A stretch of DNA of 64,000 nt from an uncultured Prevotellaceae bacterium (GTDB lineage: Bacteria; Bacteroidota; Bacteroidia; Bacteroidales; Muribaculaceae). Each line of letters begins with the position of its first letter. Within the stretch, counting starts at the first letter, position 1. Positions 1,747 to 63,207 of the stretch are shown here, piece by piece. The notes under the pieces are model-generated. The model saw only the letters and a list, made by a program, of their open reading frames with translations, was not told the origin of the DNA and did no database searches. The stretch is from the NCBI GenBank assembly GCA_900318645.1, contig ONLH01000004.1:1-64000 (forward strand), in the 5' to 3' direction. The translations under genes and the position numbers were made by a program.

Positions 1747-1767
1747 GTTTAAAGTTTAGAGTTTAGA
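1747..1767 (+). repeat. 7-bp array, 3 units
   Basis: Units GTTTAAA, GTTTAGA, GTTTAGA. Each carries TAA or TAG on this strand and TAA or TTTAAAC-type stops on the other. Confidence 0.7.
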
Positions 1768-1861
1768 GGGGCATCCGCGTTGTAGGGCCTCGCCTTGGCG
1801 TGGCCGTCCCATGACGTAAAAATCTCACGCTAAGCCGCATTGATGCTCGCTGGCGCTCGCA

Positions 1862-1889
1862 GATTAGTGATTAGAGATTAGTGATTAGT
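1862..1889 (+). repeat. 7-bp array, 4 units
   Basis: Units GATTAGT, GATTAGA, GATTAGT, GATTAGT, directly before a GCATCCGC hairpin. Confidence 0.8.
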
Positions 1890-1892
1890 GAA

Positions 1893-1926
1893 GCATCCGC
1901 GTTCCGTTTGACTGGAAAGCGGATGC
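1893..1926. repeat. GCATCCGC hairpin
   Basis: Inverted repeat GCATCCGCGTTCC / GGAAAGCGGATGC, 13-bp arms with one mismatch and an 8-nt loop. It belongs to a hairpin family also present at 4881, 7104 and 11579. It could act as a transcription terminator or a REP-like element. Confidence 0.75.
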
Positions 1927-1927
1927 T

Positions 1928-1969
1928 CTTTAAACTTTAAACATTAAACTTTAAACATTAAACTTTAAT
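1928..1969 (+). repeat. 7-bp array, 6 units
   Basis: Units CTTTAAA and CATTAAA alternate and the last is CTTTAAT. The TTAA core is palindromic, so TAA appears on both strands. Confidence 0.85.
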
Positions 1970-2100
1970 CTGCGAGCAACGCGAGCCTCTTTGCGAGCCT
2001 CTTGCGAGCAATAATAATAAACTTAGCGACTTGGCGGCTTAGCGTGAGATGTATCAATGCGTCAGCCACATTGTTTTCGTAGTTTTTTCTCGGTATTTCT

Positions 2101-2130
2101 TTTGGTTTTGTATTGTTTTTCGTATTTTTG
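2101..2130 (+). promoter_or_regulatory. Bacteroidota promoter of the LRR_5/dockerin gene
   Basis: TTTG at 2101-2104, 18 bp, then TATTTTTG at 2123-2130 (consensus TAnnTTTG). The start codon follows about 40 bp downstream. Confidence 0.6.
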
Positions 2131-2168
2131 CAACAAAATAACAATAATGACTTAATTTTTTACTGCTT

Positions 2169-4502: not shown

Positions 4503-4518
4503 TGCGAGCAAGCTCGCA

Positions 4519-4539
4519 GTTTAAAGTTTAGAGTTTAGA
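4519..4539 (+). repeat. 7-bp array, 3 units
   Basis: Units GTTTAAA, GTTTAGA, GTTTAGA, identical to the array at 1747-1767, and like it placed after a GCTCGC motif. Confidence 0.7.
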
Positions 4540-4633
4540 GGGGCATCCGCATTGTAGGACCTCGCCTTGGCGTGGCCGCCCTACGACGGATAAACCACAC
4601 GCCAAGCCGCGTTGATGCTCGCTGCGTTCGCAG

Positions 4634-4661
4634 GCTTTAGGCGTTAGGTTTTAGGCTTTAG
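4634..4661 (+). repeat. 7-bp array, 4 units
   Basis: Units GCTTTAG, GCGTTAG, GTTTTAG, GCTTTAG inside the first full 123-bp unit. Confidence 0.75.
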
Positions 4662-4756
4662 AGGGGCATCCGCATTGTAGGGCCTCGCCTTGGCGTGGCC
4701 GCCCCACGACGGATAACCCTCACGCCAAGCCGCGTTGATGCTCGCTGCGTTCGCAG

Positions 4757-4784
4757 GCTTTAGGCGTTAGGTTTTAGGCTTTAG
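4757..4784 (+). repeat. 7-bp array, 4 units
   Basis: The same four units as at 4634-4661, carried in the second 123-bp unit. Confidence 0.75.
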
Positions 4785-4880
4785 AGGGGTATCCGCATTG
4801 TAGGGCCTCGCCTTGGCGTGGCCACCCCACGACGGATAAACCACACGCCAAGCCGCCAAGTCGCAAAGATTTTTAAGCTA

Positions 4881-4914
4881 GCATCCGCGTTTCGGTCAAA
4901 CGGAACGCGGATGC
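4881..4914. repeat. GCATCCGC hairpin
   Basis: Arms GCATCCGCGTTTCG / CGGAACGCGGATGC, 14 bp with one mismatch and a 6-nt loop, followed by CTCTTTAA. Best-formed member of this hairpin family. Confidence 0.8.
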
Positions 4915-4915
4915 T

Positions 4916-4978
4916 CTTTAACCACAAAACACTAACCATTAACCATTAACCATTAAACTTTAACCATTAACCACAAAA
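4916..4978 (+). repeat. 7-bp array, 9 units
   Basis: CTTTAAC, CACAAAA, CACTAAC, CATTAAC, CATTAAC, CATTAAA, CTTTAAC, CATTAAC, CACAAAA. This is the longest array in the window, with two units that have lost the TAA core. Confidence 0.85.
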
Positions 4979-5121: not shown

Positions 5122-7059
5122 ATGAAAAAATTATTATTTATTTTGGCTGCGCTGTTGATGGCAAGCAATGTCATGGCTATGCGCACAGTAGTTTTTAGGC
5201 CATCCGTTGACAAGAATGAGGCAACTGGCGGAAATGTTACTAACGGATCCTATACCTTGAGCAAGCATGGCGTGACAATTACAGTCGATTTGGGTTCCAT
5301 TACCAATGACCAGTATCGCTTTTCCGCATATAACGAGTCATCCAATAACACCATCGAAGTAGCTCCATCAATTGATTGGGATGTCCTCTATGAAGGGGAG
5401 TATGGTGTGTTCTATGGACGCCTCCAGAAGATTGAGTTCGTCTGTGTGGACTCAGGCACTTATGGGCCAGGAAATTTGGATGCTTTAGGCAATATGCCTG
5501 GCGGTGATTATTCTTCCTCTGGAAATGTAGGTGTATTTGATGCCGAAGGTTACAATACCCGAGAATACTATTATTTCAAAGCTAATAGTGAGGTGCGTTG
5601 TACTGAAATCAGGGTGACCGTTTATGCCGATCCGGTTGCACCTGAGTACAATTATTCTGATGCCTTGAATGTTTCTGGTGGCGATATTCAGTTCACGAGT
5701 AGTGGTACCTATCCCTGGATTACTGTTGAGAGTGGTGGCCGCACCTATGCCCAGTCTGGCAACCAAGGCGTTGCTAGCAGCTCATCGGAGTTGACGGCTA
5801 CGGTTAATTTATCACAAACCTACACTTTGTCGTTTGATTTTAAGGCATGGGGCGAAGGCACATCTTATGACAGGTGCATTTTCTCTATAGATGGCGTGGA
5901 GAAGTTCTCCTATGGAGCCCGTGATAACGACTGGGAGACCTATATGGTGGACATTCCAGCAGGTAACCACACACTGAAGTGGTCCTATGTTAAAGACAGT
6001 AGTGTCAACCCCGAAGGCGACTATTTCGCTGTGGACAACGTGGCATTAAGGATACCTCTGGATAAGGCCTTGAATGTGACAGGCGGAAACATACATTTCA
6101 CGAGTACTGGCACCTATCCCTGGATTACTATTGAAAGTGGCGACCGCATCTATGCCCAGTCTGGCAACCAGGGTATTGCTAGCAGCACGTCGGAGCTGAC
6201 GGCTACTGTTTCTTTATCACAAGCCTACACCTTGGTGTTTGATTTTAAGGCGTGGGGCGAAGGCACATCTTATGACAGGTGCATTTTCTCAATAGATGGC
6301 GTGGAGAAGTTCTCCTATGGAGCCCGTGATAACGACTGGGAGACCTATATGGTGGACATTCCAGCAGGCAACCACACACTGACGTGGTCCTATACTAAGG
6401 ACAGCAGCGTCAACCCCGTAGGCGACTATTTCGCTGTGGACAATGTGGCATTAAGGATTCCTCTGGATAGGGCATTGAATGTGTCTGGCGGAAATATTCA
6501 TTTCACGAGCAGTGGTTCCTATGCCTGGTATACTATATCGAGTGGCAGCCGTACCTATGCCCAATCGGGCAACCAGGGCATTGCTAGCAGCTCATCGGAG
6601 TTGACGGCAACCGTCAATTTAAGTCAATTCTCTAGTCTGTCGTTTGATTTCAAGGCGTGGGGAGAAGGCACATCTTATGACAGGTGCATTTTCTCAGTAG
6701 ATGGTGTGCAGAAGTTCGCCTATGGAGCACGTGATAACGACTGGGAAACCTATAAGGTAGATATTCCTGCAGGCAATCACACACTGTCTTGGATCTATAT
6801 TAAAGACAGTAGTGTCAATCCCGATGGCGACTATTTCGCTGTGGATAATGTGTCTATCACAACCAAACCCGTGATACGTGGTGATGTCGACGGTGACGGC
6901 ACTGTGTCAATCAATGATGTGACAGAATTGATCAATGTCTTGTTGAATGGCAATACGGCTTCGCTCAATCTCAGTGCTGCTGATTGCGACCGTGACGGCA
7001 AAGTGAACATCGGCGATGTAACAGTCCTGATAAACTACCTCATAACTGGTCACTGGTGA
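5122..7059 (+). CDS. Secreted protein with three tandem 135-residue modules and a dockerin pair
   Basis: A signal peptide covers about residues 1-19. Residues about 20-175 form an N-terminal domain I do not recognise. Residues 181-315, 316-450 and 451-585 are three near-identical modules. Each runs ALNVxGGxIxFTS...YAQSGNQGxASSxSELTATV...SFDFKAWGEGTSYDRCIFSxDG...YGARDNDWETYxVDIPAGNHTLxWxYxKDSS...GDYFAVDN. The all-beta, jelly-roll-like look suggests a binding module (inference). The last 55 or so residues are a dockerin-like pair (GDVDGDGTVSINDV, ADCDRDGKVNIGDV) ending GHW, like the GTW ends of the two genes upstream. Probably cell-surface or secreted. No catalytic motif is seen. Confidence 0.85.
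   Translation: MKKLLFILAALLMASNVMAMRTVVFRPSVDKNEATGGNVTNGSYTLSKHGVTITVDLGSITNDQYRFSAYNESSNNTIEVAPSIDWDVLYEGEYGVFYGRLQKIEFVCVDSGTYGPGNLDALGNMPGGDYSSSGNVGVFDAEGYNTREYYYFKANSEVRCTEIRVTVYADPVAPEYNYSDALNVSGGDIQFTSSGTYPWITVESGGRTYAQSGNQGVASSSSELTATVNLSQTYTLSFDFKAWGEGTSYDRCIFSIDGVEKFSYGARDNDWETYMVDIPAGNHTLKWSYVKDSSVNPEGDYFAVDNVALRIPLDKALNVTGGNIHFTSTGTYPWITIESGDRIYAQSGNQGIASSTSELTATVSLSQAYTLVFDFKAWGEGTSYDRCIFSIDGVEKFSYGARDNDWETYMVDIPAGNHTLTWSYTKDSSVNPVGDYFAVDNVALRIPLDRALNVSGGNIHFTSSGSYAWYTISSGSRTYAQSGNQGIASSSSELTATVNLSQFSSLSFDFKAWGEGTSYDRCIFSVDGVQKFAYGARDNDWETYKVDIPAGNHTLSWIYIKDSSVNPDGDYFAVDNVSITTKPVIRGDVDGDGTVSINDVTELINVLLNGNTASLNLSAADCDRDGKVNIGDVTVLINYLITGHW
5662..6876 (+). repeat. 405-bp coding tandem repeat, three copies
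   Basis: Equivalent codons (gcc/gcc/gca of the ALN motif) fall at 5662, 6067 and 6472, exactly 405 bp apart, so each module is 135 codons. Long stretches are identical between copies at the DNA level, which points to recent duplication or gene conversion. Confidence 0.9.
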
Positions 7060-7178: not shown

Positions 7179-7206
7179 CTCTAAACATTAAATTCTAAAT
7201 TCTAAA
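7179..7206 (+). repeat. 7-bp array, 4 units
   Basis: CTCTAAA, CATTAAA, TTCTAAA, TTCTAAA, then a GCGAGC-type motif at about 7207-7228. Confidence 0.8.
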
Positions 7207-8233: not shown

Positions 8234-10117
8234 ATGATGAAGTCTTTACTCGTTACTGTGGCAGCACTCACGGTGTTGAGTGCGTCAGCCCAATTGAAGA
8301 ATGCTAATGCTGGTGTGCTGCGGCAGGATCAGTTCGTGTCCAAAACCCGTTCTCAGGCGTTGAAGCAGGAAATGCACCAGGCTTCAGAAGCCGAGTTATT
8401 CCAAAAAGCTCCGAAGAAAGAGGACGGCAGTATTTCATTTCGCTACGTGCGTCCTGCTGGCGCTTTCTCGGGCTCTATCGTGCTCGAACATGATGCTTAT
8501 GGCTATGAGTTCTTGGCTCCATACATCATGTTGAAGCCTTATGTCCCTTATACTTTCAAATCAGTAACTGAGGGTCTTGACAATTCTTACAGCCTGGTTT
8601 GGGGCTATCAGCTTTGGGTGACTAACCAGGATGGTGAATGGGAACAGCAATGGTTTTATGAAATTGGGCCAGAGAATCTTGATGTCAAGTATGGATGTGA
8701 GCTCGATGAAGTTCCTATCCTGTATGTTGCCAAAGGCGATGAAGAGGTGGCATCCTATCAGATGGGCAACTACAAGAATAGTGTAGTCGATGACGGCGTC
8801 TCCATGACTGATGAGTTGATTCCATGTCATGTGTTTGCCACTCCCACCTATGAAGATCCATGGCAAAATGCCCCTGATTTGCTCTTGTCGAGCAAGACAT
8901 TTTGCACTAATGGCAGCCAATACATGACAAACTTCTACGATGGCGCTATTCCATGGGCAGACAACATGAGCGGTTGGTGGTTTGGTAAGAACGGTGGCCT
9001 TCCCAGTGGAGGACGTATTGATGGTATCGCTCAGGCCTTTGAGAAACCCACGTCTCCTTACGTGCTCAGGAAGGTGGTTCTTTGGACCACACATCTCTCG
9101 GTTGACGCTCCTGTTGATTTGACTTGTAAGGTGTATCGTCTCTCAGACGGTATTCCTGCTTATGATCCTGCAGTATATGTTACTCTTCCCGAGGAGCCCG
9201 GTGAACTCCTTGCCATTGGCCATGCCACAGTGACACCCGAGACTGCCGAGGAGAATGACGGCTTTATCGTTTTCACACTCTACGGTGAGGATGATGGTCT
9301 CGAGTATGAGATTACTCCTGAGATTGATGACAATATCTTGATTGCTATTGATGGCTATAATGACGCGGACATGGAGAACCTGCGTGATTTCACGGCGATG
9401 ATCAGCAGTGATTACCATGTTGATGAAGGTTATGGCGAGTTGGCTTACCTCAAGTACGGTGCACCTGACGCCGAGGGGAATTTCAGCGGTGACTATGTGT
9501 GGGCTGGTCTGAACAACTTTTTCTCAATTGGTGAGATGAAGACAGGCCTGACCATCTTTATGGTTGCCGATTATCCCTATTTGACATTCAACCGGCCCGA
9601 CATAGAAAACGGGGAATATACCTTTGGCCGAGTGGGTGGCATGATGTACCGACAAGTCTTTGGCGGGTTCATTCTTGGCATCGAGTTCAAGGCCTGGAAG
9701 CCGAGTGCTGATGATGAATGGGAGATGACCTGCAACGGGGAAGAAATACCCGACTGGCTGGAAATTGAGCTCATCGATGGCGAGGAAGAAGGCGAGTTCA
9801 ACAACATTGTCACAGCCCAGGTGTTTGCCGAGCCGCTCCCCGAGGGTTTGTCCTATCGTGAGACGATCGTCCGGTTCTCATTCGCTGGTGCCTACATCGA
9901 CTACAAGTTCATCCAGGGTGAGAAAATTGGGCCTACACCTCCTTGTCCTTGCTCCGGTGATTATGGGTATGAGGGCGAAGTCACCATTGCCAATCTTAAC
10001 TGCATGATTGATTACATGATAGAGGGTATGTATGACGACTGTCTGGACTTGAATGTGGACGGAGAATTCACTATCGCTGACATCAACGTCCTGATTGATT
10101 ACATTTTATTATATTAG
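8234..10117 (+). CDS. Large secreted protein of unknown function with C-terminal dockerin-like pair
   Basis: A signal peptide covers about residues 1-20 (cleavage near SASAQ). The body has no family I recognise. It is a clear paralogue of the protein at 41483-43390: both share YVRPAGAF/YKRPAGAF near residue 75, a region around GWWFGKNxG, the segment GIAQAFEKPTxPYVL, SDGIPAYD/ADGIPAYD, EPGELxAxGxATVTPET, and GYGELAYxKYG. The C-terminus is a dockerin-like pair whose first loop (YGYEGEVTIANL) has lost most calcium ligands, while the second (LNVDGEFTIADI) keeps some. Two ATG codons start the frame. The GH29 gene follows 43 bp later, so the two may share a transcript. Confidence 0.75.
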   Translation: MMKSLLVTVAALTVLSASAQLKNANAGVLRQDQFVSKTRSQALKQEMHQASEAELFQKAPKKEDGSISFRYVRPAGAFSGSIVLEHDAYGYEFLAPYIMLKPYVPYTFKSVTEGLDNSYSLVWGYQLWVTNQDGEWEQQWFYEIGPENLDVKYGCELDEVPILYVAKGDEEVASYQMGNYKNSVVDDGVSMTDELIPCHVFATPTYEDPWQNAPDLLLSSKTFCTNGSQYMTNFYDGAIPWADNMSGWWFGKNGGLPSGGRIDGIAQAFEKPTSPYVLRKVVLWTTHLSVDAPVDLTCKVYRLSDGIPAYDPAVYVTLPEEPGELLAIGHATVTPETAEENDGFIVFTLYGEDDGLEYEITPEIDDNILIAIDGYNDADMENLRDFTAMISSDYHVDEGYGELAYLKYGAPDAEGNFSGDYVWAGLNNFFSIGEMKTGLTIFMVADYPYLTFNRPDIENGEYTFGRVGGMMYRQVFGGFILGIEFKAWKPSADDEWEMTCNGEEIPDWLEIELIDGEEEGEFNNIVTAQVFAEPLPEGLSYRETIVRFSFAGAYIDYKFIQGEKIGPTPPCPCSGDYGYEGEVTIANLNCMIDYMIEGMYDDCLDLNVDGEFTIADINVLIDYILLY

Positions 10118-10160
10118 TTTTTCAGGCTAATACAGAGAATCATTTTATCAGTAAATAACG

Positions 10161-11537
10161 ATGAAAAAAGTTGTCTTAACCATTTTGACCGTCTTGATGG
10201 GCTTGCCGATGTGGGCTCAGGGCGGTGACGTGTATGAGCGTTCCAAGGAGTATGAATGGCCCACCGACCCACTGGTTGTTGAAAAGCTGCATCAGTGGCA
10301 GGACCTGAAGTTCGGCGTCCTGTTCCATTGGGGAGTGTATGCCGTGCCGGGTATGGTCGAGAGTTGGGCTATCTGTGACGAGGACTGGGTGACGCGTGAC
10401 ACGACCATGACCTACCAGCAGTATAAAGACTGGTACTGGGGACTGGCCGACAAGTTCAATCCTGTCAAGTTTGACCCAGCACAGTGGGCCGAGGCTGCCA
10501 AGCAGGCTGGTATGAAGTACATGATCTTCACGACCAAGCATCACGATGGCTTTTGCATGTTTGACTCAGAGTACACCGACTACAGTATCGCCCATCATGC
10601 CTTCAAGGACAACCCCAAGCGCGACGTGCTGCGCTATGTCCTGGATGCCTTCCGCGACAAGCAGTTCATGATAGGAACCTATTTCTCCAAGCCTGATTGG
10701 CATTGTCAGGACTACTGGTGGGACGTGTATCCAACCAAGCGTGGCCGCAATGTGAACTATGATATCAAGAAGTGGCCCCACCGTTGGGAGAGCTTCAAGC
10801 GATATACCCACAACCAGATGGAGGAAATCCTCTCCAATTACGGTAAAGTGGACATCTTGTGGATGGATGGCGGCTGGGTATGCCCCGAGAACAATCAGGA
10901 CATCGACATGCCTGCAATCGCTACCATGGCACGCGGTCACCAGCCTGGCCTCATCATGGTGGACCGCACCATCCATGGCCCCTACGAGAATTATCAGACA
11001 CCTGAACGTACAATACCCGTGACTCAGCTCAATTTCCCATGGGAGAGCTGTATCCCCTTGAGTGACGATTGGGGATGGGTGCCCCGTCCTCGCTGGAAAA
11101 GCCCCGAGCGTGTTGTGAATACCCTTGTTGAGATTGTTGCCAAGGGTGGTAACCTCGTCCTGGGCGTGGGCCCCACACCCGAGGGACTCATTCAGCCCGA
11201 AGCCGTCGAGCGTCTGCAAGGCATCGGCGACTGGCTCAAGCGTAATGGCAAGGCGATTTACAACACGGTGGCTACCCCCGACTACCACGATGGCAACATG
11301 TGGTTCACCGCCTCCAAGGACGGTCGCACCATCTATGCCATCTATATGCTCAAGGAGGGCGAACAGCTGCCGGCCACCATCAGCTGGAACAAGAACCTGC
11401 CCAAGAAGGGCCAGAGCGTGAGACTCGTGAGCAACGGCAAGAAAGTCAAGAGCAAAGTGACCAACGGCACCATCGAGGTCCAGCTCCCCGCTGGCCTAAA
11501 GCAACAGTCTGTTGCCCTGGAGTACAGGGTGAAATGA
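10161..11537 (+). CDS. Alpha-L-fucosidase, GH29, exported
   Basis: A signal peptide covers about residues 1-20 (cleavage near MWAQ). The GH29 barrel is recognisable from LKFGVLFHWGVYAVPG, KYMIFTTKHHDGFCMFDSEYTDYS-type sequence near 119-142, and DILWMDGGWV, in which Asp236 is the expected nucleophile. A beta-sandwich tail covers about residues 370-458. The enzyme removes L-fucose from glycans, probably in the periplasm. It fits host mucin or plant fucoside use together with the GH2 enzyme at 44.5 kb. Its stop codon is the first TGA of the repeat element that follows. Confidence 0.92.
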   Translation: MKKVVLTILTVLMGLPMWAQGGDVYERSKEYEWPTDPLVVEKLHQWQDLKFGVLFHWGVYAVPGMVESWAICDEDWVTRDTTMTYQQYKDWYWGLADKFNPVKFDPAQWAEAAKQAGMKYMIFTTKHHDGFCMFDSEYTDYSIAHHAFKDNPKRDVLRYVLDAFRDKQFMIGTYFSKPDWHCQDYWWDVYPTKRGRNVNYDIKKWPHRWESFKRYTHNQMEEILSNYGKVDILWMDGGWVCPENNQDIDMPAIATMARGHQPGLIMVDRTIHGPYENYQTPERTIPVTQLNFPWESCIPLSDDWGWVPRPRWKSPERVVNTLVEIVAKGGNLVLGVGPTPEGLIQPEAVERLQGIGDWLKRNGKAIYNTVATPDYHDGNMWFTASKDGRTIYAIYMLKEGEQLPATISWNKNLPKKGQSVRLVSNGKKVKSKVTNGTIEVQLPAGLKQQSVALEYRVK

Positions 11538-11554
11538 TGCTCGCTGCGCTCGCA

Positions 11555-11575
11555 GATGAGTGATTAGAGATTAGT
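11555..11575 (+). repeat. 7-bp array, 3 units
   Basis: GATGAGT, GATTAGA, GATTAGT inside the composite element. Confidence 0.7.
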
Positions 11576-11578
11576 GAT

Positions 11579-11616
11579 GCATCCGCATTCAGGTCAAGCG
11601 GCCGGAATGCGGATGC
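11579..11616. repeat. GCATCCGC hairpin
   Basis: Perfect 12-bp arms GCATCCGCATTC / GAATGCGGATGC with a 14-nt loop; possible bidirectional terminator. Confidence 0.75.
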
Positions 11617-11715
11617 ATTGTGTTTATTGTCTTCCTTTTATAACTTGGCGGCTTAGTGGCTTAGCATGAGATTATGTATGCGGATGCCCCAATTAAAAAA
11701 AGGAGCGCGTAGCCC

Positions 11716-11743
11716 CTATAAACTTTAAACCCTAAACTCTAAA
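11716..11743 (+). repeat. 7-bp array, 4 units
   Basis: CTATAAA, CTTTAAA, CCCTAAA, CTCTAAA, directly before the right end of the composite element. Confidence 0.8.
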
Positions 11744-11762
11744 CTGCGAGCGCCAGCGAGCA

Positions 11763-12212
11763 TCAGTCTTCGCCTTCGGCGACTTCACACTGGCACATCT
11801 CACGGTATTCCTCCCAGTCGGGGTCTTCATCTGCCTCAAATTGTAGGGGTAGGGCAGGGAAGGGTGCCATCACCTCGTTGAACTTGCGCTGGAAAATGTG
11901 CAGCGAACGTGTGTAGAATACCCAGTTGCGTTGTCCGTCACCCGTGTAGATGCCCGTCATCACGGCCACTGGATCTCGGTCAAAACACCCGTTCAAGGCG
12001 TCGGTGACCTCTTCCATAACCTTGCTGTCGGCATAGCTTGGCAGGCCCTTGGCATCGCCCTCATAGGGCCACGTCACCTCCACGCGATAGCGGTACACAC
12101 CAGTGGCGATGACGTTATCCATAGCACGCCTTCCTGTCACCAGAATCAGGCTGCCATTGTCTCCCTCGGCTGGTGCGGTCCACCAGTCATCGCTGATTTT
12201 TAACTTTGCCAT
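11763..12212 (-). CDS. DUF695-like hypothetical protein
   Basis: A 149-residue protein without signal peptide or membrane segment. The segment MDNVIATGVYRYRVEVTWPY near residue 30 and the acidic tail with DPDWEEYREM resemble DUF695 proteins of Bacteroidota, whose function is unknown; the match is from memory and moderate. It lies 23 bp after the lipoprotein gene at 12236-12715 on the same strand, so they may be cotranscribed. Its stop codon falls in the inverted end of the composite element. Confidence 0.65.
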   Translation of the reverse strand: MAKLKISDDWWTAPAEGDNGSLILVTGRRAMDNVIATGVYRYRVEVTWPYEGDAKGLPSYADSKVMEEVTDALNGCFDRDPVAVMTGIYTGDGQRNWVFYTRSLHIFQRKFNEVMAPFPALPLQFEADEDPDWEEYREMCQCEVAEGED

Positions 12213-18747: not shown

Positions 18748-18793
18748 GTTATTAGAATAGTTAATAGTAGTAGATGTTACATCATCCAAAGCT

Positions 18794-18842
18794 CCTAACT
18801 TCTAACTTCTAACTCCTAACTTCTAACTCCTAACTCCTAACT
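18794..18842 (+). repeat. 7-bp array, 7 units
   Basis: TCCTAAC and TTCTAAC units without interruption in the gap between the aspartate kinase and threonine synthase genes, ending 8 bp before the thrC ATG. Each unit has TAA on this strand and TAG on the other. Confidence 0.95.
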
Positions 18843-20236: not shown

Positions 20237-21163
20237 CTACAGTAGGAAGAACAACGACACGCCGATGACCGAGATCAGTGCTCCCAGCAGGCTCTTAGCT
20301 GTGATGGGTTGCTTGAACAGCCACCAGGCGGGTAGAATGATGATAATAGGTGTCAAGGCCATCAGTGTGCTGGCGATGCCCGCCGCAGTATATTGTACCG
20401 CAAGTAGCGATGCCCCAACTCCGACAAAAGGCCCGAAGATAGTCGTCAACAAGGCCGTCATGACACCCTTGCGATCGCGTACGCCCTTTCCCAGCGGTGC
20501 GAAACCTTCACGCAGGGCCATTAGCACAGTAAATCCAATAGTTCCCGCAATGCAGCGGAAGAAGTTGGCATGGAACGGCAGCATCCATCCCGCCAGGTCG
20601 GTCGTGAGCGATGCTTCGTAGTGGTCCATGCCTATCTTGCTCAATACCAGTCCAACGCCCTGGCACACGGCGGCGCCAATGGCGAACAGTACACCAGCCA
20701 AGGGCAGCTTGAGCGATAGTTTGTGGTCATCTCCACGGCCCAGGACGCTGATGGCGATACCTGCAAGCGTGACGAGCATGGCCAGCATCGCAGTGGGGCG
20801 AATCTGCTGGCCTAGTGTGAACCAGGCCATGATGGCAGCGGTGATGGGGGCTAAGGTCATGAACAACTGCCCGAACTTGGATCCGATGATGATGTAGCAC
20901 TGGAATAGGCAGAAGTCACCGATGACATACCCCACCAGTCCCGACAGCATCATCCACAGATAAGCCTCGTTACTCGCTTGGGCGGGCAGGGGAGAACCTG
21001 TCATCACCCAGAACAGGATACCCGAGAATACAAGCGTAATCACCATGCGCATCAGGTTGAGCGTCAAGTTGCCTAAACGCTTGCTGCCATACTCGCTCAA
21101 CAACGCCGTCGCTGTCCACGAGAACGCTACCCCTATTGAAATCAGTTCACCGACGTATTGCAT
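20237..21163 (-). CDS. EamA/DMT-family transporter
   Basis: 308 residues with about ten membrane helices in two EamA halves (for example WMMLSGLVGYVIGDFCLFQCYIIIG-type sequence near 70-95, and STLMALTPIIIILPAWWLF near the end). The family exports or takes up small metabolites; the substrate cannot be predicted. It is convergent with thrC and appears as a single gene. Confidence 0.88.
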   Translation of the reverse strand: MQYVGELISIGVAFSWTATALLSEYGSKRLGNLTLNLMRMVITLVFSGILFWVMTGSPLPAQASNEAYLWMMLSGLVGYVIGDFCLFQCYIIIGSKFGQLFMTLAPITAAIMAWFTLGQQIRPTAMLAMLVTLAGIAISVLGRGDDHKLSLKLPLAGVLFAIGAAVCQGVGLVLSKIGMDHYEASLTTDLAGWMLPFHANFFRCIAGTIGFTVLMALREGFAPLGKGVRDRKGVMTALLTTIFGPFVGVGASLLAVQYTAAGIASTLMALTPIIIILPAWWLFKQPITAKSLLGALISVIGVSLFFLL

Positions 21164-21168
21164 GACTG

Positions 21169-21176
21169 CAAAGGTA
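21169..21176 (-). promoter_or_regulatory. -7 box (TACCTTTG) very close to the EamA gene start
   Basis: It ends 6 bp before the ATG, the same spacing as at yqgE. No TTTG box at the usual distance. Confidence 0.4.
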
Positions 21177-21344
21177 CTACATTTAGTTGATAGAGAACAG
21201 TTTTTTCAGTCCTGATGCAATAATTGATGTCGCTTTCGGCTTGAAGCATCAGTGCCGATGCAGTGTTAGCAGCCACTTTTATCTTTTATCTGCTTCTTTT
21301 CTATAAAAACTTAATGCAGGCAACTGAAAACTGAAAAGTTTTAG

Positions 21345-21352
21345 TATATTTG
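21345..21352 (+). promoter_or_regulatory. -7 box (TATATTTG) of the PBP1A gene
   Basis: Matches TAnnTTTG, about 85 bp before the ATG. No good TTTG box 19 bp upstream. The rest of 21177-21436 holds no gene. Confidence 0.45.
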
Positions 21353-21436
21353 CAGATTGTAAACTACCGTTTGGCCTATTGGATTTGTTCAATGGGTTGA
21401 ATGATAATATGTTAAAGTCAATAACTAGAAAAAGAT

Positions 21437-23893
21437 ATGAGCGAAAAAACTATTGGAAAGAAGAAAAAGAAACGCAGCAACGTTGTTCGCAAGATGTGGA
21501 CAATATTTGCCATTGTCATGGCTCTGCTGGTTGCGTTGTTTGTGCTGATTTACAATGGCGTGATTGGCTACATGCCGCCCATCGACCAGTTGAAGAATCC
21601 CACCGACAAGTTCGCATCGACCATCTACAGCTCTGATGGCGTGGAGATGGGCCGCTACTACCGTAGCCGCAGCAACCGCATCTATGTGGACTTTGACGAA
21701 ATGTCGCCGCACTTGACCGACGCCCTGATCGCCACCGAGGATTCACGTTTTTACGATCACTCGGGTGTTGACCTCAAGGCTATCGGCCGTGCCGTCATCA
21801 AGCGTATCATTATGGGTCAGAAGAGTGCCGGTGGTGGTAGTACCATTACCCAGCAGCTCGCTAAGCAGTTGTATTCGCCTGAATCCCACAATATCTTTGA
21901 GCGCGCCCTTAAGAAACCCGTCGAGTGGGTTATCGCTGTCAAACTTGAGCGTTATTACACCAAGGACGAGATTGTCAAGATGTACTTCAACCAGTTTGAC
22001 TTCCTCAACAATGCTGTGGGTATCAAGATGGCTTCGGAGGTCTATTTCGACAAGGATCCCAAGGACTTGAATATTCAGGAGGCCGCCACTCTGGTGGGCA
22101 TGTGTAAGAATCCTTCCTATTACAACCCTGTACGCTATGGTGAGCGCACACGTCAGCGCCGCAATGTGGTGTTTGAGCAGATGGTCAAGGCTGGTTTCCT
22201 GAGCGAGGCCGAGTGTGAACAGCTCAAGCAGCTGCCGCTGATTATCAAATTCAAGAAATTGGACCACAACGACGGCCCCGCACCTTACTTCCGCGAGGAA
22301 CTGCGCCGCGTGATGACGGCCAAGAAGCCCAAGCGCAGCGACTATCCATCCTGGAACCAGCAAGCCTTCATCGACGACTCGGTAGCTTGGGAGGTGAATC
22401 CCCTCTTCGGCTGGTGCAACAAGAACACCAAGCCCGATGGTTCACATTATGACATTTATACTGACGGCCTGAAGATTTACACCACGATTGACTCACGCAT
22501 GCAGGAGTATGCCGAGAAGGCTGTTCACAAGCACATGAGCAAGACCCTGCAGCCCGCGTTCCTGCGTGAGCGCGGTGGTACCAAGAATCCTTACACCAAC
22601 AACAAGCAGGAGCTTTCCAGTGCCGGCAAGCAGGCTCTTATCAATGCCGCTATCCGTCACAGTGAGCGCTACCGTGTCCTCAAGAATCAAGGCAAGAGCG
22701 ATGCTGAGATTATGGACAACTTCAAGAAGCCGGTACAGATGCATCTGTTCAACTATGAAGGTGGATTTGATGCTCAGATGACCCCGCTCGACTCGTTGCT
22801 CTACACTAAGTCGTTCCTGCGCTGTGCCATGATGTCGATGGATCCCGTTACGGGATTTGTCAAGGCTTACGTCGGCGGTCCCAACTTCCGCTTCTTCAAG
22901 TACGACATGGTATCGACTGGCCGTCGTCAGATCGGTTCTACCGTAAAACCCTTCGTCTATTCACAAGCCATTGAATTTGGCGGTTTGACGCCTTGTTCTA
23001 CCCGTCCCGGTGGTGCGCCCAACATCATCTGGCACAATGAGGTTTACAATCCGGCCAATGAGGGTAGTGGCGGCGGAATGTCGCTGAAGCAGGCGTTGAC
23101 CTACTCTAAGAACTGGATCTCGGCAGGCTTCATGCGAGGCACGCGTGAGAACTGGATTGAGCGCAACGGTTATTACACCATGACGCCCGAGGAGTTGGCT
23201 AAGTGGATGCACAGCTTCGGTATCACGAGTTATCTTGACCCTGTGCCTGCATTGAGCTTGGGCTCATGCGAGGTTTCCCTGCGTGAGATGGTAGCTGCCT
23301 ATTCGGCTTTTGCCAACGGTGGTATGCGTGTGGAACCCGTCTATGTTTCGCGCATCACCGACAACCGCGGTAACGTGGTAGCAGAGTTTACTGGCAGCCA
23401 GACCGAGATTATGAGCGAGGACACCTACTTGAAGATGCTCTCCATGTTGCTCGAGGTAGTGAATAGCGGTACGGGTGCGCGCCTGCGCTATGCTTACGGT
23501 ATCACTGCCGACATGGGTGGCAAGACCGGTACCACCAACTTCCACAGCGATGGTTGGTTCATGGGCTTCACGCCCGAACTGGTGACCGGCGTCTGGGTTG
23601 GCGGCGAGGAGCGCTACATCCACTTCAACAGCATGGCGATGGGTCAGGGTGCTGAGGCGGCATTGCCTATCCTGGGTTATTATATGAAGTGGCTCTACGA
23701 CGACAAGCAACTGCCCTACAAACAGAGCACCAAGTTTGAGTTCCCCAAGGACTTCAACGCCTGCGGCGATGAGTTGGGCGGCTATGCCGGCAGCGGTGGC
23801 GGTTGGCACGGCGGCGGAGGCGGCGGTGAATCCGGCGGCGACGGCGGTGGAGGCGGCGGCAACGACGACGCCACCGAAGGCCTCTTCGACTAA
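21437..23893 (+). CDS. Penicillin-binding protein 1A-type glycosyltransferase/transpeptidase
   Basis: Class A PBP, 818 residues. A basic cytoplasmic start is followed by one membrane helix (about 21-44). The GT51 domain shows Glu101 in IATEDSRFYDHSG and GGSTITQQLAKQLY. The transpeptidase domain has Ser501 in GSTVK, SKN at 557-559, and KTGTTN at 696-701. It polymerises and crosslinks peptidoglycan at the inner membrane. The last 40 or so residues are a Gly-rich tail (GGGWHGGGGGGESGGDGG), not part of the core family. A strong terminator begins at the stop codon. Confidence 0.93.
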   Translation: MSEKTIGKKKKKRSNVVRKMWTIFAIVMALLVALFVLIYNGVIGYMPPIDQLKNPTDKFASTIYSSDGVEMGRYYRSRSNRIYVDFDEMSPHLTDALIATEDSRFYDHSGVDLKAIGRAVIKRIIMGQKSAGGGSTITQQLAKQLYSPESHNIFERALKKPVEWVIAVKLERYYTKDEIVKMYFNQFDFLNNAVGIKMASEVYFDKDPKDLNIQEAATLVGMCKNPSYYNPVRYGERTRQRRNVVFEQMVKAGFLSEAECEQLKQLPLIIKFKKLDHNDGPAPYFREELRRVMTAKKPKRSDYPSWNQQAFIDDSVAWEVNPLFGWCNKNTKPDGSHYDIYTDGLKIYTTIDSRMQEYAEKAVHKHMSKTLQPAFLRERGGTKNPYTNNKQELSSAGKQALINAAIRHSERYRVLKNQGKSDAEIMDNFKKPVQMHLFNYEGGFDAQMTPLDSLLYTKSFLRCAMMSMDPVTGFVKAYVGGPNFRFFKYDMVSTGRRQIGSTVKPFVYSQAIEFGGLTPCSTRPGGAPNIIWHNEVYNPANEGSGGGMSLKQALTYSKNWISAGFMRGTRENWIERNGYYTMTPEELAKWMHSFGITSYLDPVPALSLGSCEVSLREMVAAYSAFANGGMRVEPVYVSRITDNRGNVVAEFTGSQTEIMSEDTYLKMLSMLLEVVNSGTGARLRYAYGITADMGGKTGTTNFHSDGWFMGFTPELVTGVWVGGEERYIHFNSMAMGQGAEAALPILGYYMKWLYDDKQLPYKQSTKFEFPKDFNACGDELGGYAGSGGGWHGGGGGGESGGDGGGGGGNDDATEGLFD

Positions 23894-23931: not shown

Positions 23932-23966
23932 ATTAGATATTAGATCCTAGATATTAGATATTAGGT
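23932..23966 (+). repeat. 7-bp array, 5 units
   Basis: ATTAGAT, ATTAGAT, CCTAGAT, ATTAGAT, ATTAGGT, directly after the terminator stem and 20 bp past the end of the four-helix-bundle gene (minus strand). Confidence 0.9.
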
Positions 23967-23986
23967 GGTATAGTTTCTCTAATACC

Positions 23987-24352
23987 TTATAGGTCTTTGT
24001 CATTCTGGCGGGTAGTTTTTGCAGTACTGGTCAATAGTTTTATTAATTCGGTGCAGTCCTCATCAATGCTTGTATATTCATTGTCGGACAGGTAGCCGGT
24101 TCTATATAAAATTTCCAACCAGTATTTAGTCTCAGCACATTCCTTCAAGGAAATGTAAACTTTTGCAAGAAAGTCATTACGGCTGATTCCGTAGATGGCC
24201 TCTGACAAGTTTGCTCCAATAGAAGTTCCAGAACGAAGCAGTTGCTTTGACAAGATAAATTCATGTTTATCTTTCAAGTATTTGTAAAGCTTTACAATTC
24301 TTATCGCAAAATCCTTGCTTTTTTCTAGAGTCAAGCTTTCAACTGCCATCAC
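23987..24352 (-). CDS. Four-helix bundle protein (23S rRNA IVS / S23 family)
   Basis: 121 residues, all helical. LRSGTSIGANLSEAIYG (about 41-57) and FLAKVYISLKECAETKYWLEIL (about 62-83) are the hallmarks of the family first named from 23S rRNA intervening sequences and related in fold to Avd of diversity-generating retroelements. The function of free-standing members is unknown. It is bracketed by 7-bp arrays with the same ATTAGAT-like unit on both sides, in inverted orientation, unlike other single genes here; this suggests insertion as a cassette (inference). Confidence 0.85.
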   Translation of the reverse strand: MMAVESLTLEKSKDFAIRIVKLYKYLKDKHEFILSKQLLRSGTSIGANLSEAIYGISRNDFLAKVYISLKECAETKYWLEILYRTGYLSDNEYTSIDEDCTELIKLLTSTAKTTRQNDKDL

Positions 24353-24360
24353 ATTGGTGT

Positions 24361-24409
24361 CTAATAAATATCTATTATTTATTATCTAATATCTATTATC
24401 TATATATAG
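24361..24409 (+). repeat. 7-bp array, 7 units
   Basis: CTAATAA, ATATCTA, TTATTTA, TTATCTA, ATATCTA, TTATCTA, TATATAG. It overlaps the 3' end of folD and supplies its TAA stop (complement of 24396-24398). Confidence 0.85.
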
Positions 24410-25274
24410 ACTTCTGTGCAGCCGCTAAGGTGTTCTTCATCAGCGAGCAGATGGTCATGGGACCTACGCCGCCGGGGACGGGGGTGATGTATTCGCACTT
24501 GGGTGCTACCTCGTCAAACTTCACGTCGCCGTTCAGGCGGAATCCCGTTTTGCTGTTGGCATCAGGGACGCGGGTGGTACCCACATCAATGATTACGGCA
24601 CCATCCTTCACCATATCAGCGGTGACAAAGTCGGGGCGGCCGATGGCAGCGATGATGATATCGGCAGCGCGGCACTCTTCCTTCAGCGTCTTGGAGTGGC
24701 TGTGGCAGACGGTTACAGTAGCGTCGCCGTGTTCCTTCTGGAGCATCAGTTGTGCCATGGGCTTGCCCACGATGTTGCTGCGGCCCAGCACTACGCACTT
24801 CTTGCCCGAGGTGGGAATCTGGTAGCGCTGCAGCAGGGTGATGATGCCAAGGGGTGTTGCCGAGATAAAGCACGGCAGACCCAGTGCCATACGGCCGGCA
24901 TTTACGGGATGGATACCGTCAACGTCCTTGCGGTAGTCAATGACGTTAATGACCTTCTGCTCATCGATGTGCTTGGGCAGAGGCAGCTGCACGATGAAGC
25001 CGTCAACGTCAGGGTCATTGTTCAGGCCGCGGATGCAGTCGAGCAGCTCTTCCTCGGTCGTGTTCTCCTCCAGACGGATGAGCGACGACTTAAACCCGCA
25101 CTTTTCGCAGGCGATGACCTTGTTTTTTACGTATGCTTCCGAGCCACCGTCGTGACCCACCAGCACGGCAGCCAGGTGCGGACGCTTCTGGCCCGATGCT
25201 ATCATCTGCTCCACCTCGGCTTTGATTTCTTCCTTGATGGTAGCAGCAGTCATTTTTCCGTCTATTAATTTCAT
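24396..25274 (-). CDS. folD: Bifunctional methylenetetrahydrofolate dehydrogenase/cyclohydrolase
   Basis: 292 residues, the usual FolD length. It shows SEAYVKNK with the catalytic lysine, [38 protein letters not shown] for NADP binding, and the C-terminal [10 protein letters not shown]. It interconverts 5,10-methylene- and 10-formyl-tetrahydrofolate in the cytosol. The final codons (after AAAQKS) run into a 7-bp array, so the last residues may be specific to this strain. Confidence 0.95.
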
Positions 25275-43569: not shown

Positions 43570-43881
43570 ATGAAACGCGTTCGCATCACTGCGATGCGCC
43601 AAACCGTCTATCATGACCTGATGCAGCAGTTCGAGAATCCTATCGAGCACGCTTGTGATATCTGCTTGGGGCAGTCATTCATTTCGATTGACGGACAACG
43701 CCCCGAGGGCATGTGTGAGAGTGCCTGGGGCTCAATGCAGCCCTTTGTCGAAGCATTGGCACGAGGGGAGGGCAACTTCTATGACGGCTGGATGCAGAAC
43801 CCCTATTCTGCGATGATCTCATGCAACGACGGTTTCCGTCCCGTCTCGTTCTATTTGGAAACGATTGAGACCGACAACTGA
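43570..43881 (+). CDS. TIGR04076-like small protein
   Basis: 103 residues from Met 43570: KRVRITAMRQTVYHDLMQQFENPIEHACDICLGQ at the start and AMISCNDGFRPVSFYLE at the end fit the TIGR04076 family of unknown function, with cysteines at ACDIC, MCES and SCND. The frame is open further upstream, but the predicted transcript start and the family start favour 43570. Its stop codon is the TGA of the first 7-bp unit that follows; engB starts 23 bp downstream. Confidence 0.8.
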   Translation: MKRVRITAMRQTVYHDLMQQFENPIEHACDICLGQSFISIDGQRPEGMCESAWGSMQPFVEALARGEGNFYDGWMQNPYSAMISCNDGFRPVSFYLETIETDN

Positions 43882-43901
43882 CAACTAAAAACTGACAACT
43901 A
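43874..43901 (+). repeat. 7-bp array, 4 units
   Basis: ACAACTG, ACAACTA, AAAACTG, ACAACTA in the gap between the TIGR04076-like gene and engB. It supplies the upstream stop codon. Confidence 0.85.
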
Positions 43902-56918: not shown

Positions 56919-56960
56919 TATTAGACGTTAGATTTTAGACGTTAGATTTTAGACTTTAGA
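56919..56960 (+). repeat. 7-bp array, 6 units
   Basis: TATTAGA, CGTTAGA, TTTTAGA, CGTTAGA, TTTTAGA, CTTTAGA. It spans the dedA/rpe gap and encodes the last codons and the TAA stop of dedA (minus strand). Confidence 0.92.
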
Positions 56961-57674: not shown

Positions 57675-57683
57675 ATCAAGCTA

Positions 57684-60498: not shown

Positions 60499-60526
60499 CT
60501 AATCTCTAATCATTCATTCCTAATCA
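60499..60526 (+). repeat. 7-bp array, 4 units
   Basis: CTAATCT, CTAATCA, TTCATTC, CTAATCA between the acyltransferase and nitrilase genes, next to a hairpin; the third unit has lost the core. Confidence 0.7.
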
Positions 60527-61622: not shown

Positions 61623-61653
61623 TTTGCCAGTATCAAAAATGGCAGTAATTTTG
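61623..61653 (+). promoter_or_regulatory. Promoter of the tRNA-Glu pair
   Basis: TTTG (61623-61626), 19 bp, TAATTTTG (61646-61653). Full consensus; the first tRNA starts 15 bp downstream. Confidence 0.8.
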
Positions 61654-61667
61654 CATCGCTTTTCTAC

Positions 61668-61743
61668 GGAGATATCGTCTAGTGGTCTAGGACGCCGCCC
61701 TCTCACGGCGGAAACCAGGGTTCGAGTCCCTGTTTCTCTACCA
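61668..61743 (+). tRNA. tRNA-Glu (CTC), copy 1
   Basis: Cloverleaf with anticodon CTC in loop CTCTCAC and a T loop TTCGAGT. CCA (61741-61743) is encoded, unlike the tRNA-Met and tRNA-Ser here. Confidence 0.93.
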
Positions 61744-61787
61744 GCAAAGCCTTCACCCGACCATGAGCGAGGGCTTTATTTATCGAC

Positions 61788-61863
61788 GGAGATATCGTCT
61801 AGCGGTCTAGGACGCCGCCCTCTCACGGCGGAAACCAGGGTTCGAGTCCCTGTTTCTCTACCA
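61788..61863 (+). tRNA. tRNA-Glu (CTC), copy 2
   Basis: One base different from copy 1 (C for T at 61803, in the D loop), CCA encoded (61861-61863). Between the copies AAAGCC...GGCTTT can form a stem. Confidence 0.93.
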
Positions 61864-61868
61864 AACGA

Positions 61869-61900
61869 AGCCTTCAGCCAATTTCGGCTGAGGGCTTTTG
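61869..61900 (+). terminator. Terminator of the tRNA-Glu pair
   Basis: AGCCTTCAGCC / GGCTGAGGGCT, 11 bp with one G-T pair and a 6-nt loop, then TTTTGTTTTG. Confidence 0.85.
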
Positions 61901-61971
61901 TTTTGTTTGTACTTGTGATTGAGATTGTTTAGTCACAGTTGCCTGTGCCGCGACTCAGTCGCGGCCCCGTT

Positions 61972-63165
61972 TCAAGCTTTCTTGCAGAGGTACAGCAGCC
62001 GCTGGCCCGTAGTAGTCGTGGTCCCGAAGATATAGCAGTCGCCGCCGTCCTGCAAGCGCAGTCGTTGCCGCAGCTGCTGAGCTGTCATCGGGAAGTTGCG
62101 CGTGGCGATATTGGCTCGGGTGATACCGTTGAGAGCATGAGCCAGTTCCTTCTTGTTCATTGTTGTGATGGCGACGATGGTGAAACGGCGGCCAGGAAAC
62201 TCCACAATTTCCTTTCTTGACACAAACAGGTGACTATCCGTTGCCAGGGCCTTGATAGGGAAACGATCAGTCAACAGGCCGAAGCATCCCGCTTTCATCA
62301 CCGATGCGTTGGGCTCGTAGAGGTATGCAGCATCGTCGCTATCGGCAATCAGCAGGGGCTTGTCGTCTTGAGAAGGCTTGTAAATGAGCGATTGGTCGTC
62401 ATTCACACAATAGATGGTGGGTTCGCCCTCATGTTCGGCACTCAGCAGTATCAACAATTCCTTGCACTCGTTGCCCGTGCTGACGATGTGGATTTCGTCG
62501 ACGCGGCTGCCCAGGTCGCTCACAGCCTTGTGCCAGTCGAGCATGGGCGACAGTTTTAACAAGATATGGTCTGCTGCCTTGAAGAGTTGGTCTTTCAGCT
62601 CCAGCACGTTAGGTGTGCAGTCGGCGATGGCATAGGTGCGGCTGCTGTTGCTGTCACGACGTGCCGGGTCAAGGTAAATCACCGTAGTGGCGGGATTGGT
62701 TTCCAAGTCATTTAATACGGTCTCGGCCTCACCATGGATGACGCGGGCATGATGTAGCTCCAATAACTCAAAATTGTGTCGAGCTGTCTCGCACAGGTGT
62801 TCTTGCCGCTCAACATAGGTGGCTTGCTTGGCGCATTTTGCCATGAAGGCAAAGTCCACGCCGAATCCCCCCGTCAGGTCAATCAGCGTCTCGCGGCACG
62901 CCTGTGGCAGTCGCTCGATGATGCCACATTTATATATAGCGGTCTGTTGGCTGCTGCATTGCTCCATCGACAGATGGGGAGGATAGACGATGCCGTCAGT
63001 GGCTGCCCAGGCAGGCAGTTTGCGACGTGCCGTTTGCCAGCCCTGTATCTGGTCGAGCGCCCACGACAAGTCAATGTCTCCGTCGCGCCGCGCCTGTAGC
63101 GCCAACGCCCTCACATCCTCCTCGCGATGCTCCCTTACAAACCCTATCGTCTCCTCGTTCCTCAT
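61972..63165 (-). CDS. THUMP-like domain class I SAM-dependent methyltransferase
   Basis: 397 residues. The Rossmann part has LIDLTGGFGVDFAFMAKCA (motif I), ATYVERQEHLCETARHNFELL, and VIYLDPARRDSNSSR (DPxR-like motif IV). The C-terminal part (about 300-397) is the THUMP-like domain common in Bacteroidales members. RNA is the likely substrate but the site is unknown. A 7-bp array fills the gap to the regulator gene upstream and ends at the start codon. Confidence 0.85.
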   Translation of the reverse strand: MRNEETIGFVREHREEDVRALALQARRDGDIDLSWALDQIQGWQTARRKLPAWAATDGIVYPPHLSMEQCSSQQTAIYKCGIIERLPQACRETLIDLTGGFGVDFAFMAKCAKQATYVERQEHLCETARHNFELLELHHARVIHGEAETVLNDLETNPATTVIYLDPARRDSNSSRTYAIADCTPNVLELKDQLFKAADHILLKLSPMLDWHKAVSDLGSRVDEIHIVSTGNECKELLILLSAEHEGEPTIYCVNDDQSLIYKPSQDDKPLLIADSDDAAYLYEPNASVMKAGCFGLLTDRFPIKALATDSHLFVSRKEIVEFPGRRFTIVAITTMNKKELAHALNGITRANIATRNFPMTAQQLRQRLRLQDGGDCYIFGTTTTTGQRLLYLCKKA

Positions 63166-63207
63166 CCTAACTCCTAACTCCTAACTCCTCACTTCTCACT
63201 TCTAACT
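63166..63207 (+). repeat. 7-bp array, 6 units
   Basis: CCTAACT, CCTAACT, CCTAACT, CCTCACT, TCTCACT, TCTAACT. It encodes the last six codons and the TGA stop of the regulator gene on the minus strand. Confidence 0.92.

Follow-up and report, generated by a model that had tools for sequence, protein, structure and literature searches.

The short tandemly repeated repetitive (STRR) sequences of Cyanobacteria are tandem heptamers, and the Avd proteins, four-helix accessory proteins of diversity-generating retroelements, have a fold resembling that of S23 (PF05635). Heptamers and S23 genes meet in the DNA described here, a stretch of 64,000 nucleotides (the window; positions 1 to 64,000 of contig ONLH01000004.1, assembly GCA_900318645.1) from an uncultured Prevotellaceae bacterium of the gut, in which short arrays of 7-bp period lie between genes and two of them flank an S23 gene. 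The heptamer arrays of this genome probably form the inverted ends, or arms, of small S23 elements that are related to the intervening sequences (IVS) of 23S rRNA genes, and of gene-less derivatives of these elements.

In the IVS of Coxiella, Leptospira and others, terminal inverted repeats enclose an S23 gene and form a long stem. The Coxiella IVS has three tandem GACAGAT heptamers, varying in number between strains, upstream of its S23 open reading frame (ORF), and it is processed by RNase III; the structure of the S23p protein of X. campestris has been solved (PMC4990558). The element of the window shares with the IVS its S23 ORF and its pairable terminal inverted repeats, but does not lie inside a 23S rRNA gene. 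The elements described here also differ from the IVS in sitting in gaps between ordinary genes or the genes of an operon, in occurring several to a genome, in bearing arrays on both arms and in having many gene-less copies.

Intergenic repeats of TAACTGA are described for Beggiatoaceae, Cyanobacteria and five Bacteroidetes (MacGregor 2015, PMC4679880). They are found mostly a few nucleotides before start codons, overlap the ends of ORFs and, as that report notes, place stops in all three frames, and in each of these respects the present arrays are like them. (Position upstream of a start in the forward direction is seen for 51 arrays; the window's own genome has more arrays at stops.) Heptamer arrays in Bacteroidota are thus already published, and the statement of a first-pass annotation of the window that no such element had been described in this phylum does not hold. 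What differs is the multiplicity of unit types (related AACTGAC and AACTGAA classes occur here; most units are different) and the link to S23 genes and inverted arms, which is absent there, 'S23' not occurring in the main text of that paper. The GGGAATC repeats of Xanthomonas and GGGGATT repeats of Nostoc are also comparable: their G strand points outward (it is the coding strand after stops and the non-coding strand before starts), inverted pairs occur in Xanthomonas, and sequence and length vary at conserved places; in contrast to the present interpretation, that paper treats them as quadruplex repeats whose role is unknown (Rehm 2015, PMC4692102). Heptanucleotides of Calothrix are cited in the same paper. 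The likeness to STRR extends to tandem heptanucleotides as such and to plasmid S23 genes of Calothrix and Nostoc, which were found to be flanked by arrays (the comparison is of arrangement, not of unit sequences). A literature search, which covered titles, abstract openings and selected passages and few subscription journals, found no report of a general link between S23 genes and inverted heptamer arrays.

An S23 element with inverted heptamer arms

The complete IVS-like element of the window occupies 472 bp (23932-24403). Its left arm, found in a scan for period-7 tracts, has the unit ATTAGAT (23932-23964, + strand); its right arm, with unit TATCTAT on the + strand (24369-24403), is nearly the inverted complement of the left and includes the stop codon of folD. 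The first-pass annotation had listed both arrays (the second at 24361), and left unremarked the gene that they flank. This gene (23987-24352, - strand; product of 121 aa) matches the PF05635 profile (23S_rRNA_IVP) with E 1.8e-29 and 102.5 bits against a cut-off of 33.8, its product is related to PDB entry 2rld (E 1.7e-33), and it is the only gene seen inside the element. The predicted RNA fold of the element has an energy of -122 kcal/mol (z -5.4 against 100 shuffles), with the two arms paired. The element lies between a long + strand ORF at 21437-23893 and folD (24396-25274), and tRNAs are the only curated RNA families in the window; it is therefore not in a 23S rRNA gene.

The same gap carries S23 genes, about 75% identical, in the window species and in two relatives (G007 and G017), with three different array units: those of the relatives are of the AGATAAG and AGTTAAT types. 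The arms are inverted in each species, and in G007 the S23 gene is reversed relative to its neighbors. In five other genomes (G009, G024, G080, G078 and G053) the gap is without an S23 gene; the proteins flanking it in one of these, the sister species G080, are 98% identical to those of the window.

PF05635 is present in 91 of 101 genomes of the genus. The best hit from each of 30 of these genomes was taken and, after three short loci were left out, arrays were sought within 200 bp of the gene at the remaining 27 loci. (Chromosomal genes were called with a home-made hexamer model, so that start positions are approximate; tract thresholds were set by the authors.) Arrays are on both sides of the S23 gene at 20 of the 27 loci and on at least one side at 22; the units of the two sides match in inverted orientation at 6 or more of 7 positions in 15 pairs, and one pair is direct. 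Among 1124 other called genes, arrays on both sides are found at 18 and an inverted match of at least 6 at three (Fisher, 5e-27 and 2e-24, respectively), and of these three genes one (L151) shares 76.5% identity with the S23 gene of the window. The arm units are diverse, ranging from TTAGTCC to GTGGAAC and AGGGAAG. Nevertheless, the two arms of a locus match at 6.15 positions on average, against 4.37 when arms are re-paired between loci, and none of 2000 random re-pairings reaches the observed value. The arms also have a polarity, the same as in gene-less pairs (see below): G exceeds C in 15 left arms and C exceeds G in 3, while C exceeds G in 17 right arms and G exceeds C in 2. Over the 101 genomes the number of arrays, counted with one (CTAA) pattern and taken without correction for completeness or kinship, tracks the number of S23 genes (rho 0.41, p 2e-5). 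In the ten genomes that lack S23 the matches number 0, 0, 0, 0, 0, 0, 1, 2, 7 and 15; the median in genomes with S23 is 46.

A second sample comes from plasmids. Twenty of 58 tblastn hit rows were picked for taxonomic spread before their flanks were inspected: 15 from Cyanobacteriota and one each from Gemmatimonadota, Bacillota, Spirochaetota, Bacteroidota and Chloroflexota. An array lies within 150 bp of the S23 gene at 17 of the 20 loci and on both sides at 16 (14 of the 15 cyanobacterial loci, 2 of the 5 others), compared with none two-sided among 101 control coding sequences (Fisher, 1e-16). (The controls are taken from the 112 coding sequences listed for three of the sampled plasmids, leaving out the S23 and Avd rows, three end-cut rows and six short ones.) Thirteen loci, 12 cyanobacterial and the one from Chloroflexota, have an inverted match of at least 5. 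The Gemmatimonadota and Bacteroidota loci are below threshold on one or both sides, yet their flanks share 37-nt inverted repeats; at the Spirochaetota locus the best units of the arrays are not matched in inverted orientation and a 16-nt inverted repeat is present; the Bacillota locus (L317), whose ORF is broken so that the right flank was set inside it, is poorly examined. Arm units match at 5.69 positions on average against 3.85 on re-pairing, again reached by none of 2000 random re-pairings, and the polarity is that of the chromosomal arms (G over C in 13 left arms against 2; C over G in 13 right arms against 0).

Several of the plasmid S23 genes (at L304, L313, L312, L317 and L305) are set within operons, among cas6/cas4, nrd genes, cas10/cmr3 and hsdS/hsdR, and S23 genes between operon genes look like operon passengers; the cas10/cmr3 and hsdS/hsdR loci are below the array threshold. 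On one plasmid with an S23 element (L324), an Avd gene has an annotated reverse transcriptase as its neighbor (9043-10539).

Heptamer arrays, their polarity and gene-less pairs

Arrays were scored as maximal tracts of period p (+1 for a match, -2 for a mismatch), with thresholds of at least 10 in the window and at least 12 in a sample of 935,726 bases, consisting of the window and 60 further stretches, or about a quarter of the 3.60-Mb genome. Fourteen of the 17 sites originally named in the window reach the threshold; those at 11555 and 43874 are weaker (scores 8 and 9), and that at 60499 is a tract of only 13 bp with a score of 6. The window has 14 tracts of period 7 and, multiples 14 and 21 excepted, none or one at each other period from 2 to 24. 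In the larger sample, 70 tracts of period 7, 49 of period 14 and 30 of period 21 stand against 0 to 14 at every other period from 2 to 25. The arrays are nearly confined to gaps: 65 N-free tracts lie in 167,386 intergenic bp and one in 750,103 coding bp, and 50 dinucleotide shuffles of the gaps give 0.08 tracts on average and at most one. The placement of the arrays between genes, as first described, applies to 68 of the 70 tracts in the sense that they are mainly intergenic; it is not strict, since 11 of the 70 (among them those at 24369, 56921 and 63165) contain the stop codon of a neighboring ORF. Among periods 4 to 13, period 9 is second commonest in gaps (10 tracts, compared with 65 at period 7), and in one stretch of a relative (L158, from G022) periods 9 and 18 are commoner than 7.

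The array pattern CTAANNNCTAANNNCTAA is found in 89 of the 101 genomes of the genus, with 0 to 710 matches per genome; the window's own genome has 359, compared with 40 matches of the reversed control. In the phylum as a whole, 142 of 296 genomes contain the pattern, but the control often has as many matches there, so that other units prevail. A composite motif, GAGTTTAGAGRGGCATCCGC, recurs in 59 stretches, whose record titles all name uncultured Bacteroidales, Prevotellaceae or Muribaculaceae and in some cases point to the ruminant gut.

Arrays at gene edges, that is, no more than 30 bp away, have a strong polarity: in the own genome 40 of 44 have their C-rich strand reading toward the gene, as do 25 of 33 in relatives and 29 of 36 in a test set (from which 50 arrays overlapping the search motif, 5 duplicates and 4 at contig ends had been left out). 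Arrays at greater distance have no bias: the own genome gives 11 against 10 and the test set 11 of 20. At start edges the polarity is 4 against 4 in relatives and 11 of 15 in the test set. Of 25 pairs of neighboring arrays in one gap, 14 have the G-rich array first and the C-rich one second and none has the opposite order, the other 11 being on the same strand or without skew; 27 further pairs from motif-selected loci comprise 8 that are G-then-C, 19 on the same strand and none C-then-G. The base skew of gaps was rejected as a source of this polarity: array-free gaps are nearly skewless (C 0.193 and G 0.208 toward stops; 0.172 and 0.160 toward starts). Growth by telomere-like end addition, brought to mind by the TTAG units and the outward polarity, was dropped as an explanation given the inverted arms of S23 elements.

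In some of the gaps with neighboring arrays, a short hairpin lies at the center of a long inverted repeat; these are elements without a gene. Two are in the window. The one at 1855-1977 consists of GCTCGCAG, an array (1862-1891), a hairpin (1892-1927), a second array (1928-1968) and CTGCGAGC; the predicted RNA fold of 1862-1968 has a z of -6.5. The other (11535-11765) fills the gap between two convergent stop codons, with a weak array at 11555-11578, a central hairpin at 11577-11618 and an array at 11719-11745. A composite repeat is also recognized, in which a head, TGCTCGC..GCTCGCAG, is followed by a TTTAGAG-type array and GCATCCGC (1729-1768, 4503-4661 and 11538-11578). Of 31 such heads in the own-genome sample, 26 are followed by an array and 20 have GCATCCGC within 70 nt; 14 begin no more than 6 nt downstream of a stop codon, and for 10 of them the distance is exactly one nucleotide.

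The remaining arrays of the window are listed with coordinates on the + strand. G-strand arrays lie at 1746-1768, behind a GCTCGC head that comes after the stop codon at 1725; at 4518-4540, with the same composite head, 1 nt past a stop codon; and at 4632-4661 and 4755-4784, within successive 123-bp tandem copies of the composite. C-strand arrays are at 4923-4973 (TTAACCA), behind a hairpin at 4880-4915; at 18795-18842, ending 8 nt ahead of the thrC start codon; and at 43873-43900 (score 9), directly ahead of the start of ysxC/engB. An array at 56921-56960, between rpe and a DedA-type gene, reads TCTAACG toward rpe and includes the DedA stop codon; one at 63165-63207 (TCCTAAC) provides the last codons and the stop of the upstream ORF; a short one (TAAATTC) was found by the period-7 scan at 7189-7206. 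Two further features of the window were noted: about three 405-bp tandem repeats at 5692-6852 in a dockerin-bearing ORF (5122-7059), and a AACTGAAAACT-like sequence beside a promoter-like TATATTTGCAG at 21163-21437, upstream of the gene at 21437, a pair that recurs in several of six relatives shown.

Stop codons, leaders and turnover

The first-pass annotation saw in the arrays a CTAA, TTAG or TTAA core and a device for placing stop codons in every reading frame. The core is real: it is present in 57 of 69 units over 17 tracts, 58 of the 69 have stops on both strands, and the 4-mers that most often recur at a distance of 7 are AACT and CTAA. Among the 68 consensus units from the own genome 82% have stops on both strands, and among 44 arrays of relatives 73% do, compared with own-genome controls of 14% (heptamers of array-free gaps), 23% (A+T-matched) and 36% (letter-permuted units), and it is this excess that establishes the core. 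The 58 arrays of the test set have stops on both strands in 44 cases, on one in 14 and on neither in none. Closure of all frames is less complete than was claimed: it extends to both strands in 12 of 17 arrays (15 on the + strand, 13 on the - strand), the array at 24369 closing only one + frame and that at 43873 only one - frame. Moreover, stops are not a property of the array class. The 32 arm units of plasmid S23 elements have stops on both strands in 5 cases, on one in 16 and on neither in 11; for 40 arm units of the genus the numbers are 22, 12 and 6.

Leaders that contain an array are closed in three frames in 77.5% of 71 cases, against 33.9% in shuffles. Array-free leaders (n=1030) are only slightly above their shuffled counterparts (18.9% against 14.5%), and a general need for stops upstream of starts was rejected on this ground. 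The 51 array-led starts have further features in common: the end of the array is most often 4 nt before the ATG, C exceeds G in 40 and G exceeds C in 9, and the median predicted fold energy is -0.8 kcal/mol, where a sample of 1200 other starts has a median of -3.4 kcal/mol (p 4e-10). The 44 gene-edge arrays of the own genome are divided between stop codons (34) and starts (10).

Several arrays differ between sister species by whole units. The thrC leader array has about 7 units in the window and 2 or 3 in the sister species G080; at 11719 the numbers are four and three, and at 63165 about six and four. The array at 56921 is of equal length in G080, with an identical change in two alternate units. 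Such differences make selection on the period, which the earlier reading had invoked, unnecessary. Whole arrays can also be absent: of 30 thrC loci, 19 were compared (the other 11 being in reverse orientation), and 16 of these 19 genomes have a short gap without an array. Of 30 genomes compared at the dedA-rpe gap, 15 bear an array in a common position, the units being of several kinds; the upstream protein varies in its C-terminal tail, which often extends into the array. The 51-bp thrC array (18792-18842) has copies elsewhere in two other species, 100% and 98% identical (G102:C6:51196-51246 and G101:C9:61494-61546); this is either exchange of arrays or chance among units of two letters.

Origin of the arrays

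A full S23 element consists of an array, mostly with its G-rich strand, a gene for an S23 protein of about 120 residues with four helices, and an inverted-complement array with the C-rich strand. Its place is a gap, in many cases one inside an operon or one where it abuts a stop codon. Once transcribed, its two arms could pair as one long stem. Its units vary freely in sequence and also vary in number, both arms changing together. That arms of changing unit remain matched argues that complementarity is what is kept, and if selection sees the pairing of arms rather than the unit, letters will drift between arrays while the period stays. Most of the solitary or paired arrays without a gene may then derive from S23 elements, as miniature inverted-repeat transposable elements (MITEs) do from transposons; shared period, shared polarity and the correlation between genomes point to this descent. 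The arrays may grow through 7-bp slippage or duplication. The S23 protein may bind the stem of the arms and work in mobilizing or maintaining the element: given its relation to the Avd proteins, it is likely to bind nucleic acid, and a step through RNA is conceivable. Richness in stop codons and unstructured leaders would make insertions tolerable at gene edges, and can be thought of as effects of the arrays, not as their cause.

Against this origin weigh the S23 loci that lack one or both arrays, 7 of 27 in the genus (with both missing at L277, L283, L284, L285 and L290) and 4 of 20 on plasmids, three of these among the five that are not cyanobacterial. Arm pairs are direct or unmatched at L291, L313, L315 and L319. 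The genus loci are best-scoring hits and not a random draw. The own genome has 5 PF05635 hits, compared with 70 arrays in a quarter of its length; most arrays are therefore without an adjacent S23 gene, and it is for these that descent has to be inferred. Array counts also correlate, more weakly, with an unrelated family, PF01797 (rho 0.21, p 0.04). Outside Bacteroidota and Cyanobacteria the evidence is thin. No target-site duplication could be established, and no transposase or transposition event was seen.

The arrays might instead be ordinary microsatellites, born of a polymerase that favors a 7-nt step, purged from coding sequence and shaped by composition and by constraints at gene edges, with S23 genes nearby because both collect in gaps. 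One survey is reported to have found heptanucleotides to be the commonest class of long simple repeat in the majority of its genomes (Mrazek 2007, quoted in both PMC4679880 and PMC4692102), sister species do differ by whole units, and arrays are nearly absent from genes. What microsatellites do not predict is that S23 genes should be flanked on both sides when other genes are not (20 of 27 against 18 of 1124; 16 of 20 against 0 of 101), that the arms should be inverted and co-vary, or that pairs should be G-then-C (14 against 0). For arrays beside S23 genes this explanation is already hard to hold, and for the arrays as a whole it is unlikely. Conversely, S23 elements could insert into pre-existing arrays that serve merely as target, as the direct arms at L291, L313 and L319 might suggest. 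Insertion into one array leaves the same strand on both sides, though, and inverted matches of at least 5 of 7 are the rule, seen in 19 pairs out of 20 in the genus and in 13 out of 16 on plasmids; the inverted arms mostly refute this explanation, which we regard as scarcely tenable. Nearly as remote is the proposal that the arrays are repeats of the repetitive extragenic palindrome (REP) or bacterial interspersed mosaic element (BIME) type, moved by a REP-associated tyrosine transposase (PF01797). The GC-rich composite heads (26 of 31 followed by an array) speak for it, as does PF01797 itself, which 92 of the genus's 101 genomes possess; its correlation with array counts, however, is weak over all 101 genomes and is 0.22 (p 0.13) over 47 of 48 good genomes (G096 left out), and one genome (G052) has 179 array matches and no PF01797. 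With so weak a correlation the transposase is an unlikely driver of the arrays.

Two explanations invoke a function at gene edges. As a translational barrier between genes, closing all frames on both strands (the initial view of the window), the arrays would be kept for their stops. The excess of both-strand stops in units, the closure of array-holding leaders and the 11 of 70 arrays that provide a neighbor's stop are what such a barrier would give. The idea of a stop in every frame as function nevertheless fails to extend beyond the arrays to array-free leaders, where the excess is small, or to the stop-free arm units of plasmids (11 of 32), and it leaves inverted arms and S23 genes unexplained; we hold it to be very improbable. 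Alternatively, arrays in leaders could be G-poor, unstructured landing tracts for ribosomes, perhaps bound by S1 or Csp proteins, as MacGregor proposed for TAACTGA. The spacing, C excess and low folding of the 51 array-led starts are consistent with this, as is the dedA-rpe gap, where 15 of 30 genomes have arrays of different unit at the same place. Since gene-edge arrays are mostly at stops, and the thrC gap is short and array-free in 16 of 19 genomes, a leader function is an improbable origin for the arrays.

The preferred origin, arrays as arms of S23 elements and their gene-less derivatives, has a wider form, which is tentative and on present evidence rather doubtful: S23 proteins might be what mobilizes a widespread class of elements that lack a recognizable transposase, marked by inverted heptamer arrays and moving perhaps through a hairpin RNA, with the heptamer repeats of Cyanobacteria, Xanthomonas, Beggiatoaceae and Bacteroidota and the Coxiella IVS as its arms and gene-less derivatives. 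That arrays are two-sided at only 2 of the 5 non-cyanobacterial plasmid loci makes this proposal slightly less likely. The identification of arrays with S23 arms looks like providing the old puzzle of bacterial seven-base repeats with a concrete suspect, and two questions, why heptamers are favored as long simple repeats and what S23 and the IVS do, merge into one that can be tested. The co-variation of the arms makes their pairing, rather than the sequence of the unit, the target for experiment. If the identification is correct, every PF05635 gene would be a handle on the ends of an element, and gene-less arrays would constitute a traceable, mobile-like layer of the genome that remodels the gaps between genes, altering leaders, stop codons and the spacing of operons.

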